Source: a virus | DNA length: 64,000 nucleotides | Strand: one strand, 5' to 3' | Virus record (IMG/VR): IMGVR_UViG_3300042868_003730 | Span: 1-64,000 of that record | Part shown: in pieces, positions 6,810 to 34,822 of the stretch | How the letters are laid out: each line of letters begins with the position of its first letter | How positions within the stretch are numbered: position 1 is the first letter of the stretch | Notes under the pieces: generated by a model | Told to the model about the DNA's origin: nothing | Databases searched by the model: none | What the model saw: only the letters and a program-made list of their open reading frames with translations | Translations under genes and position numbers: made by a program

Positions 6810-7058
6810 ATGAATTACATTCCAATGAATCGAAACATTATCGTGCGCTGTTCAGAAGGCTCGAAGATTACTGAGTCAGGTATCGTGCTGCAGAATTCAC
6901 AAGAACAAGAGATTGCAATTGTGATCGCAACTGCATCTGATGTTGATGAAGTTTCGATTGGTGACCGAGTTCTGGTGCATTGGCCAGACACGATCAAATT
7001 AGAACTCAACACATACAAAGTTCCGATGAATAATGTGTTGGCAGTTTACGAAGAATAA
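6810..7058 (+). CDS. GroES-like co-chaperonin (Gp31 role)
   Basis: 82 residues, shorter than host GroES (about 97). The fold signature is visible: N-terminal PMNRNIIVRCSEGSKITESGIVL (the T.SGI/VL start of the mobile loop), GDRVLVH in the middle and a C-terminal NVLAVYEE. Such phage proteins replace GroES on GroEL to fold the capsid protein, as T4 Gp31 does. A TTAAGGA ribosome site precedes the ATG. tRNA-Val begins two bases after the stop, so it is probably cotranscribed. Confidence 0.88.
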   Translation: MNYIPMNRNIIVRCSEGSKITESGIVLQNSQEQEIAIVIATASDVDEVSIGDRVLVHWPDTIKLELNTYKVPMNNVLAVYEE

Positions 7059-7059
7059 T

Positions 7060-7134
7060 GCCTTGTTAGCTCAGTGGTAGAGCGGCTCCTTTACACGGAG
7101 CGGGTCGGCGGTTCGAACCCGTCACAAGGTACCA
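7060..7134 (+). tRNA. tRNA-Val (TAC)
   Basis: Acceptor GCCTTGT pairs with ACAAGGT. Anticodon stem GCTCC/GGAGC holds loop TTTACAC, anticodon TAC. T-arm TTCGAAC and encoded CCA (7132-7134) are present. Confidence 0.93.
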
Positions 7135-7141
7135 TTATAAC

Positions 7142-7231
7142 GGAAGTGTGTCCGAGTGGTTTATGGATGCAGTCTTGAAAACTGCCGAATCAGAAATGGT
7201 TCCGTGAGTTCGAATCTCACCACTTCCTCCA
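7142..7231 (+). tRNA. tRNA-Ser (TGA)
   Basis: Acceptor GGAAGTG pairs with CACTTCC. Anticodon stem GCAGT/ACTGC holds loop CTTGAAA, anticodon TGA. A long variable arm is present, as expected for a class II tRNA. The discriminator base is T, unusual for Ser; CCA is encoded. Confidence 0.88.
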
Positions 7232-7403: not shown

Positions 7404-7479
7404 GGAGAATAAGACTCGGTCAGTACGGTGGGACGTGCAGGTGGACAACACATGGACAAGGTTCGAATCCAAACTGAGT

Positions 7480-7790
7480 TTTTAGTATGATCGTATGAAG
7501 TAATTAGAAATGAGTTCTGGACGCGGGTTCGATTCCCGCCAGCTCCACCAAAAGCATATTCTGGCTGGTATCGGCAGTAGCCAAAAGGTCTTAGTATGCT
7601 TTTGATGGGGCTGATCAGGTTTTCGACAGGGCGAAAAGTATATGCATGGACGATCCAGTAGGCGATGACTGTAAATCAAGCAAAACAACGTAAATGCAAA
7701 CGACAGCGTCTATGACGTCGCATTAGCTGCCTAAACTCAGCTTAGGGTTTCGGTGGGTTTCCTAGTAACAGAATTACCCACCACTAACAA
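7480..7790 (+). ncRNA. ssrA: Circularly permuted (two-piece) tmRNA
   Basis: The 3' acceptor half comes first: GGACGCGGG TTCGATT CCCGCC and CAGCTCC-A-CCA ending at 7550. After an intervening loop (7551-7606) closed by an 8-bp stem (7551-7558 with 7595-7602) comes the 5' half GGGGCTG (7607-7613), which pairs with CAGCTCC, followed by the tmRNA signature TTTTCGACAGGG. The reading frame resumes at GCA 7696 and encodes ANDSVYDVALAA then TAA (7732-7734); with the charged Ala the tag is AANDSVYDVALAA, ending in the LAA degron. A stem (AGCTG/CAGCT) and a GGTGGGT/ACCCACC pairing (7752-7758, 7776-7782) follow. It should rescue stalled ribosomes and tag proteins for proteolysis. The 5' limit is approximate. 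Confidence 0.92.
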
Positions 7791-7791
7791 T

Positions 7792-7865
7792 TGGGGATTA
7801 GTTAAATGGTATAACATCGGATTTTGATTCCGAGATCACAAGTTCGATTCTTGTATCCCCTGCCA
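7792..7865 (+). tRNA. tRNA-Gln (TTG)
   Basis: Acceptor TGGGGAT pairs with ATCCCCT except for a U1-U72 end mismatch; weak 1-72 pairing and G73 are normal identity features of tRNA-Gln. Anticodon stem TCGGA/TCCGA holds loop TTTTGAT, anticodon TTG. T-arm ACAAG/CTTGT. CCA is encoded. Confidence 0.92.
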
Positions 7866-7883: not shown

Positions 7884-8639
7884 ATGACTATTCCAAAATA
7901 CAAAAGTATATTCATATCAGACGTACATCTAGGTACGAAAGACTGCAAAGCAGCGACACTTAATGATTTTCTAAAGAACAACAGCTGCGAAACTCTATAC
8001 CTCGTCGGTGACATTATCGATGGCTGGAGGATTCAACAGAACAAGTGGCGGTGGAAACAAAGCCACACCAATGTTATTCGGAGAATCCTAGGTTGTTCAA
8101 AGGACGGTACGAAGGTAATATACATTGCCGGAAACCATGATGAATTCCTAAGACCACTGTTATCCTATCACATTGGATTTGGTCTCGTAGAGATAGCCAA
8201 TCAGTACGAGCACATTGGAGTTGATGGTAAGAAATACCTCGTAGTCCATGGTGATCTATTCGATGGTATTACCAGACTAGCACCTTGGCTCTCATTCCTC
8301 GGTGATCGCGCATATGATTTTATTCTTAGCGCAAATACTAAGTTAAACTGGGTAAGAAGAAAACTTGGATTTGGCTACTGGAGTTTAAGCAGATTCCTAA
8401 AGTATAAAGTAAAGAAAGCAATTGATTTTGTTTTCCACTTTGAAAAGAATATCGCAAAGTACTGCGCCAAACGAGGTTTTGATGGAGTTATCTGTGGCCA
8501 TATCCATCATGCAGAAATCAAAAACATCGATGGTGTTGTTTATATGAATGATGGTGACTGGGTAGAATCGTGTACGGCATTAGTTGAGCACCACGACGGA
8601 ACCTGGGAAATAATTATGTGGAATCCGCAGGATGAATGA
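7884..8639 (+). CDS. LpxH-like metallophosphoesterase (UDP-2,3-diacylglucosamine hydrolase family)
   Basis: 251 residues. Calcineurin-like metal motifs run in order: SDVHLG (D-x-H), GDIIDGW, GNHDE, HGD and GHIHHAE, with a C-terminal NDGDWVES typical of the LpxH family. LpxH removes UMP from UDP-diacylglucosamine in lipid A synthesis at the inner membrane face. The start at 7884 (MTIPKYKSIFISDVHLG) is chosen because an upstream in-frame ATG lies inside tRNA-Gln. It overlaps a GT4 glycosyltransferase by 8 bp; the pair probably alters host envelope lipid or LPS (inference). Confidence 0.85.
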   Translation: MTIPKYKSIFISDVHLGTKDCKAATLNDFLKNNSCETLYLVGDIIDGWRIQQNKWRWKQSHTNVIRRILGCSKDGTKVIYIAGNHDEFLRPLLSYHIGFGLVEIANQYEHIGVDGKKYLVVHGDLFDGITRLAPWLSFLGDRAYDFILSANTKLNWVRRKLGFGYWSLSRFLKYKVKKAIDFVFHFEKNIAKYCAKRGFDGVICGHIHHAEIKNIDGVVYMNDGDWVESCTALVEHHDGTWEIIMWNPQDE

Positions 8640-9651
8640 TCGCAAGACAATTCTTATTATCACTGATAACTTACCGGACCAAATAAATGGCGTCGTTACA
8701 ACTTTCAAAAACATTGAAACGTATGCTGATCGTGATGGGTTTGATATTGTTTATCTTGATCCCAGGCAGTTCAATTATATTAGTTGTCCTGGCTATGCTG
8801 ACATTAAACTCTCAATCCCGATTAAGATTGGAAAAAAGATTGAGAGCATATCTCCTGATTTTATCCACATTGCTACGGAAGGTCCAATCGGATTTTTCTC
8901 GCGATGTTACCTGGATAAGAAAAGGATAAAGTACAATACAAGTTATCATACAAAGTTCCCTGAGTTTCTGAAGGAGTTATATGGTATTCCAGAATGTATC
9001 AGTTACGCATACTTTCGCTGGTTCCACAAACACAGTGGGAAAGTTCTAACCACTACAAAGACCATGGTCCAAGAACTGGAAGAACATGGATTTGGTTCTA
9101 GAATAATCCCATGGACTCGCGGAGTTGACAGAAATATATTTGACAAATCTCTTCGATCACAGTATAATGGTAAGGTGTTACTAAGCGTAGGTAGGGTAAG
9201 TAAAGAGAAAGGTATCGAGGATTTCTGTTCTCTGGACTGCTCGAATGGTGGCATTAAGAAAATAGTAGTTGGTGATGGTCCATTGCGAAAAGAATTACAG
9301 GCAAAATATCCAGATGTGGAGTTCGTCGGTACGAAACGAGGAAAAGAATTAGCAGAGTATTATGCCAATGCAGATGTGTTTGTCTTTACGAGTAGGGTTG
9401 ATACTTTCGGTATCGTGATAATTGAAGCATTATCAATGGGTACTCCAGTAGCAGCATATAAAGTTCCTGGACCAATTGATATTATTGAACCTGGTGTCAA
9501 TGGATTTATAGGTGAAGATCTTGTTGATAGTATAAATAGCTGTTTAACACTCGATCGAGATTTGGTTGAGAAGTCAAGTAGTAAGTGGTCTTGGCAAGAA
9601 TGCTGGAATATATTCAAAGAAAATCTAATTTCTGTTCAGAGAGTCGGCTAA
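8632..9651 (+). CDS. GT4-family glycosyltransferase
   Basis: 339 residues with a GT-B fold. The N-terminal part has DNLPDQINGVVTTFKN and HTKFPEFL; the C-terminal donor site has SVGRVSKEKGIED, VGDGPLR and the family motif VFTSRVDTFGIVIIEALSMGTPVAAY (E-x7-E region). Members transfer hexoses or mannose from nucleotide sugars to lipids or glycans. The overlap with the LpxH-like gene suggests the two act on one envelope lipid or glycan. A role in DNA glucosylation is less likely given this relationship. Confidence 0.88.
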   Translation: MNDRKTILIITDNLPDQINGVVTTFKNIETYADRDGFDIVYLDPRQFNYISCPGYADIKLSIPIKIGKKIESISPDFIHIATEGPIGFFSRCYLDKKRIKYNTSYHTKFPEFLKELYGIPECISYAYFRWFHKHSGKVLTTTKTMVQELEEHGFGSRIIPWTRGVDRNIFDKSLRSQYNGKVLLSVGRVSKEKGIEDFCSLDCSNGGIKKIVVGDGPLRKELQAKYPDVEFVGTKRGKELAEYYANADVFVFTSRVDTFGIVIIEALSMGTPVAAYKVPGPIDIIEPGVNGFIGEDLVDSINSCLTLDRDLVEKSSSKWSWQECWNIFKENLISVQRVG

Positions 9652-34234: not shown

Positions 34235-34822
34235 ATGGCAACTAGAAAACAATCAGCTAAACAGAAGGAAGACAGTCGCACAAGCCAAGGCGATATGGAG
34301 AACCATTCAGTTCAGTTGCTATTCGGTGAGATTGATATTGAAATCGCAGCAGTAATCTGCGCATGGATTCTTGAATCAAATATGGCACAGAATCCAGAAG
34401 AAAAGCCAGCGGCATTGACAATGATGATCAATAGCGTTGGTGGTGATCTGCATGCAGCATTCGCCATTATTGAATGTATGCGCGGCAGTACTATTCCTGT
34501 TCATACTGTGGCATTGGGTAATATCTGCTCAGCTGGTCTTATGATCTTTATGAGTGGACAGAAGTCGTTTAGAACTCTGACTCCAACCTGCACGATAATG
34601 AGCCACAACTACTCAACTGGTATTGTTGGCAATCACCACGAACTCCTTGCCATCCAGAAGGAACTGAACTTTACGCATCAACGTATTCTTGATGTATACA
34701 AGAAGTGTACTGGACTGCCAGAGAAGGTCATTCTTGAGAAGTTGATTGGTAATCAGGACACGTACCTGACCCCAACTGAGGCACTGGCATTGAAACTAGC
34801 AGATAGGATCGCAGGATTATAG
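34235..34822 (+). CDS. ClpP-like serine protease
   Basis: 195 residues. Catalytic Ser in GNICSAGLMIFMSG, His in CTIMSHNYS and a downstream Asp complete a ClpP-type triad; INSVGGDLHAAFAIIECMR binds the peptide. A Gln/Arg/Asp-rich N-terminus of about 20 residues precedes. Phage ClpP-like enzymes can act in prohead maturation or as partners of ClpX/ClpA. AAGGAT precedes ATG. Confidence 0.88.
   Translation: MATRKQSAKQKEDSRTSQGDMENHSVQLLFGEIDIEIAAVICAWILESNMAQNPEEKPAALTMMINSVGGDLHAAFAIIECMRGSTIPVHTVALGNICSAGLMIFMSGQKSFRTLTPTCTIMSHNYSTGIVGNHHELLAIQKELNFTHQRILDVYKKCTGLPEKVILEKLIGNQDTYLTPTEALALKLADRIAGL

Follow-up and report, generated by a model that had tools for sequence, protein, structure and literature searches.

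Phage tmRNAs have been catalogued for years, with scant evidence of their role. The tmRNA database holds 79 bacteriophage sequences (PMC11915505), and a 2022 survey published with phage Melnitz counted 402 phages with tmRNA; of the 133 unique tmRNAs, 53 were two-piece, mostly aquatic (PMC9004378). The same paper discussed as roles the upkeep of translation machinery hijacked by the phage and the tagging of proteins of the host (PMC9004378). Menderavirus phages also carry a permuted tmRNA, so that, together with the Melnitz survey, the two-piece tmRNA of phages is as such already known. The earlier note on the DNA studied here mentioned neither these reports nor the ClpP-like gene described below.

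In this study, we analysed a 64-kb window, the first part of the 147,921-base (148-kb) virus record IMGVR_UViG_3300042868_003730; the tmRNA parts, the tRNAs and the genes for the GroES-like protein, the cell wall hydrolase and the ClpP-like protein described below lie on the + strand. The record encodes a T4-type terminase, tail sheath, portal, gp21-type prohead protease, gp23 capsid protein and DNA polymerase, with gp23 closest to T4-like cyanophages (about 60%), and to judge by these genes it is a T4-like phage, which bears out the phage origin proposed in the earlier note. Window positions 7486-7784 are a circularly permuted, two-piece tmRNA gene, on which ARAGORN and two Rfam models concur. 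ARAGORN reported a single tmRNA of permuted form (tmRNA*) with the tag ANDSVYDVALAA*, and the rest of the 147,921-base record gave no other tmRNA. The covariance models, which the earlier note had proposed as a check, both scored above cut-off: RF04321 (tmRNA_permuted) matched 7489-7734 with 137.5 bits (cut-off 47, E 7e-27), in agreement with the order of the halves and the paired tRNA-like domain, and RF01850 (beta_tmRNA) matched 7444-7804 with 112.2 bits (cut-off 84, E 2.5e-33).

The permuted order noticed earlier is found again when the gene is read from the sequence as acceptor half, CCA, 56-nt spacer, GGGGCTG, TTCGAC, tag and stop. The acceptor piece (7486..7550), delimited by ARAGORN, Rfam and covariation, comes first and holds two P2 strands (7489-7494 and 7514-7519), the T-stem 7523-7527/7535-7539 with its loop TTCGATT, the acceptor 3' strand CAGCTCC (7540-7546), A73 (7547) and an encoded CCA (7548-7550). 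The spacer (7551..7606) has a 10-bp closing stem and folds on itself as a hairpin (z -2.5), the stem also being seen in the alignment with the viral relative L064. The mRNA-like piece (7607..7784, from Rfam and covariation, with a predicted 3' end) begins with the acceptor 5' strand GGGGCTG (7607-7613), followed by TTCGAC (7622-7627), the P2 partners (7627-7632 and 7650-7655), a hairpin (7656-7659/7668-7671) and a 3' hairpin (7752-7758/7776-7782). The features of tRNA identity are all present, namely the alanine pair G3.U70, the encoded CCA end and the TTC T-loop (GGGGCTG/CAGCTCC, TTCGATT). According to ARAGORN, the tag frame ANDSVYDVALAA (7696..7734) starts with GCA at 7696 and stops with TAA at 7732-7734; the degron-like ALAA end of the tag is as first described, except that the first A of the earlier version is the alanine carried on the charged tmRNA, so that the full tag is (A)ANDSVYDVALAA.

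The tmRNA of Melnitz and its relatives (PMC9004378) resembles that of the window in being phage-borne and permuted, in having a tag reading frame and in belonging to a T4-like myophage. In contrast, the Melnitz gene is of the alphaproteobacterial type and lies under a glutamine riboswitch beside a transcription coactivator, whereas the window gene is of the beta type and lies in a tRNA cluster; no riboswitch was found. ClpP is not mentioned in the Melnitz paper (PMC9004378), while the window phage has a ClpP-like gene. The Stenotrophomonas Menderavirus phages (Marzo MZ326868, Ps15 OL702939; phage of about 160 kb) are like the window phage in carrying a permuted tmRNA in a tRNA cluster, the annotation being tmRNA in Marzo and pseudo-tRNA in Ps15. 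Their gene matches the beta-type covariance model with 94.6 bits and its acceptor half is 82% identical to that of the window, but its tag ends in TVRIAA (ARAGORN) instead of ALAA, and no ClpP was found in these phages. Among bacteria, the two-piece ssrA of betaproteobacteria (RF01850; Thauera) shares the permuted order, the TTCGA T-loop, GGGGCTG/CAGCTCC and P2, whereas the Thauera tag ANDERFALAA is two residues shorter than the tag of the window and the Thauera spacer is 36 nt against 56 nt.

Considering all the above, we regard it as probable (about 0.88) that this locus is a functional-looking permuted ssrA of the beta type in a T4-like phage, which would serve ribosome rescue and tagging and send the tagged products to proteolysis. 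The pairing of the two pieces argues for this reading. The earlier note had expected P1 and P2 pairing between 7607-7650 and 7480-7550, and three helices were found: the acceptor stem (7607-7613 with 7540-7546, 7 bp), the proximal P2 (7514-7519 with 7627-7632, 6 bp) and the distal P2 (7489-7494 with 7650-7655, 6 bp), the last reaching slightly beyond that range. In 29 sequences from phages and of beta type, the seven acceptor pairs form without exception and G3.U70 is invariant; position 5 is GC, CG, AU or UG and is paired in every sequence, and pair 2 of the T-stem occurs in all four Watson-Crick forms. The proximal P2 is paired in 112 of 114 cells (19 sequences), compared with 39-62 cells when one side is slid by 1-3 bases and a mean of 88.7 (sd 3.1) with shuffled partners, none of 2000 shuffles reaching 112. 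In the distal P2, GATCGT/ACGATC changes to GATTGT/ACAATC in L048, AGTTGT/ACAACT in L030 and TGCTGT/ACAGCA in L007, and other sequences also change on both sides; since its position was chosen as the best among nearby alternatives, this helix counts for less than the acceptor stem and the proximal P2.

The near relative L064 (90-92% DNA identity) has G5-C68 for C5-G68 in the acceptor stem, C-G for G-C in the T-stem and two double, compensatory changes in the spacer stem, and its tag is unchanged. Taken together, the pattern of stems and tag appears to be the trace of selection on a working two-piece RNA, the cutting into pieces being predicted. This speaks against a captured host copy of ssrA that is decaying or a mere passenger in the tRNA cluster. 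Phages do acquire pieces of ssrA where they integrate (PMC9004378), and the gene is mobile, for L048 and the window have only about 350 bases around the tmRNA in common (87%), with no other similarity across the stretch compared. But the window gene is complete, the changes in its stems are compensatory, the tag is kept in L064 and differs by one residue in L066, and the nearest tmRNAs are all viral (L064 with 95%, L048 and L066), with no close bacterial relative, which makes a decaying or passenger copy of a host gene quite improbable. Because L048 shares the tmRNA stretch only and has another tag (ANDLQFALAA), we conclude that the tmRNA gene moves between phages as a cassette whose tag can be replaced. 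Tags of the form ANDxxYDVA(L/I)AA recur in L039, L064, L065, L066, L067 and L068, some of these tmRNAs being otherwise distant.

A phage tmRNA could also act as a decoy, titrating SmpB and so blocking rescue in the host. Such a role has been proposed for phage DS6A, whose molecule has the tRNA domain only, and tmRNA is inhibited by a phage-encoded tRNA-like domain of this kind (PMC4131195; PMC11915505). In the window gene, by contrast, the mRNA domain is complete, and the tag, with ALAA and a stop at its end, is conserved in relatives; we therefore consider a decoy very unlikely.

The earlier note had asked which host lineage a phylogeny would indicate. Bacterial alphaproteobacterial permuted genes, whose T-loop is unlike TTCGA, form a clade of their own (100/100), and the window tmRNA groups with bacterial and phage genes of the beta type; the bacterial group labels in the tree were assigned from the T-loop and from kinship to known types. 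The lineage of the gene is thus placed outside alpha and near beta and phage genes, which is as far as this tree, with its weak deep branches, goes. In a scan of genome contigs, the exact acceptor form of the window had no match; a relaxed form matched four loci, where the tag is ANDERFALAA in every case and two are titled Thauera. Plasmid homologues amounted to a generic acceptor/T-arm match.

The tmRNA is located between tRNA-Ser (TGA; 7142..7231) and tRNA-Gln (TTG; 7792..7865, directly 3' of the tmRNA), in a cluster that also holds tRNA-Val (TAC; 7060..7134), all three tRNAs being ARAGORN calls. Just upstream of the cluster is a gene for a GroES/Cpn10-like protein (6810..7058, Pfam above cut-off), and directly 3' of it, at 7884-9651, are a metallophosphoesterase and a group 1 glycosyltransferase. 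The order tmRNA-metallophosphoesterase is repeated in L064, L067 and L068, and the metallophosphoesterases adjoining the tmRNAs of L067 and L068 are 76% identical to that of the window. No convincing promoter of its own was found near the tmRNA, promoter-like sites being at background level.

Based on this arrangement, we have proposed a plausible model. The tmRNA would be transcribed together with the neighbouring tRNAs, and host tRNA-processing enzymes would cut the precursor in two, an acceptor piece and an mRNA piece; processing of the tRNA-Gln 5' end would trim the tmRNA precursor as well. Once cut, the two pieces would be held together by the acceptor stem and P2, whose pairing the covariation shows. 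Host AlaRS would charge the tmRNA through G3.U70; neither SmpB nor SspB was found in the record, which is possibly incomplete, and the tmRNA is therefore assumed to be carried by host SmpB. During infection, the tmRNA would free ribosomes that had stalled on broken mRNAs and add (A)ANDSVYDVALAA, and the tagged products would be delivered to host proteolysis of the ClpXP/ClpAP type, possibly with a ClpP-like subunit of the phage. From processing to delivery, these steps are deduced from sequence.

The candidate subunit is a ClpP-family serine peptidase (34235..34822; PF00574 92 bits, cut-off 20.2), 26.7 kb from the tmRNA and directly preceded on its 5' side by a cell wall hydrolase (Hydrolase_2, PF07486; 33741..34226). 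It aligns with solved ClpP, and its Ser-His-Asp triad S99, H124 and D175 is invariant in 27 relatives. We call it ClpP-like because it falls below the NCBIfam cut-offs for true ClpP, with 53 bits against 308.6 for TIGR00493 (ATP-dependent ClpP). The AlphaFold model was not used for a fold search because its mean pLDDT of 48.5 was too poor. As a phage ClpX/ClpA partner, no AAA_2 gene above cut-off was found in the record (sub-threshold matches only), and the ClpP-like protein may work with a host unfoldase. Because of this, and of scores well below those of canonical ClpP, a joint function of the phage tmRNA and the ClpP-like protein is put forward as conjecture.

Relatives were considered at the level of gene neighbourhood. 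Plain co-occurrence, with ClpP in 17 of 42 tmRNA-positive contigs, was judged weak because many of these represent one clade and the contigs are fragmentary, and it was replaced by a test on viral loci chosen by ClpP alone (the best 80 of 472 relatives). Within these best 80 of 472, a permuted tmRNA lies 0.9-3 kb upstream of ClpP on the same strand in 48 of the 57 loci with at least 2.5 kb upstream, and at no more than 2.5 kb in 43 of the 57, against none within 2.5 kb downstream in 69 loci; Rfam confirmed the tmRNA in 10 of 10 linked loci re-tested. As a control, loci centred on the major capsid gene gp23, with shorter flanks of 2 kb, had a tmRNA in 0 of 80. Among 32 T4-like contigs chosen by gp23 alone, two have this ClpP, and in both a permuted tmRNA on the same strand precedes it by 1.8-2 kb. 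In the same best 80 of 472, a homologue of the cell wall hydrolase is directly upstream of ClpP in 57 of 57 loci compared, all linked ones included, and of the 48 linked loci 45 have an intervening small gene and 18 a GroES-like gene between tmRNA and ClpP. In a search of openly accessible literature, no report of a tmRNA-ClpP pairing was found.

These neighbourhoods allow the tentative proposal, which we consider possible but short of probable, that a locus dedicated to protein disposal exists in uncultivated T4-like phages, in which the two-piece tmRNA would supply the tag and the ClpP-like peptidase, often with a GroES-like protein, would help to destroy tagged products; the window phage would keep both, with its tmRNA in the tRNA cluster away from ClpP. 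Nearly even chances are given to the explanation that the ClpP-like protein serves as a head maturation protease with no link to tmRNA, the neighbourhood being just the inherited gene order of one T4-like clade. The best PHROGs matches of the protein are head maturation proteases, and in some phages the role of prohead protease has been attributed to ClpP (PMC5964084); against this, a separate gp21-type protease lies near gp23 (phrog_207, L083:12468-13100), about 80 kb away, and the ClpP-like gene adjoins a cell wall hydrolase. As for inherited order, the 48 linked loci from the best 80 of 472 reduce at 90% ClpP identity to 9 linked clusters of 13, so shared ancestry explains part of the linkage. 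The lineage of the window (L270-L273) is among the unlinked clusters, no tmRNA being found within 6 kb of ClpP in L271-L273, and BUCT-ZZ01, whose ClpP is the nearest among isolate phages, has no tmRNA within 3 kb of ClpP. However, in L048, whose tmRNA is of the window's type, the tmRNA is followed 330 nt downstream by a ClpP from another subfamily, possibly an independent case.

The pairing hints that these phages supply the tag together with part of the degradation machinery. The neighbourhood of permuted tmRNA, cell wall hydrolase and ClpP-like peptidase offers a concrete, testable partner for the question of whether phages steer tagged proteins to their own ClpP, and the conserved locus could be a marker for a broad group of uncultivated T4-like phages.

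Some of the viral tmRNAs are of unusual build. The spacer between the pieces in L067 (L067:3884-4025), from a 328-kb phage contig, is 142 nt long and contains a complete small reading frame, MRKIFVVGFLMLLAVFGIYKILKYSADHPTQCNMWHRC; the T-arm of this tmRNA is irregular too. The permuted tmRNA at L068:4780-5250 has a spacer of just 5 nt between CCA and GGGG. Upstream of the window tmRNA, a cloverleaf-like RNA element at 7411-7482, with a 10-bp closing helix, a hairpin GTACG/CGTGC and a T-arm-like GGTTCGAATCC, is possibly a degenerate or unusual tRNA. It was not found in L064, in 50,697 phage records or in Rfam; over 63 nt it is 94% identical to L048:12045-12107, and the differences keep the closing pairs.
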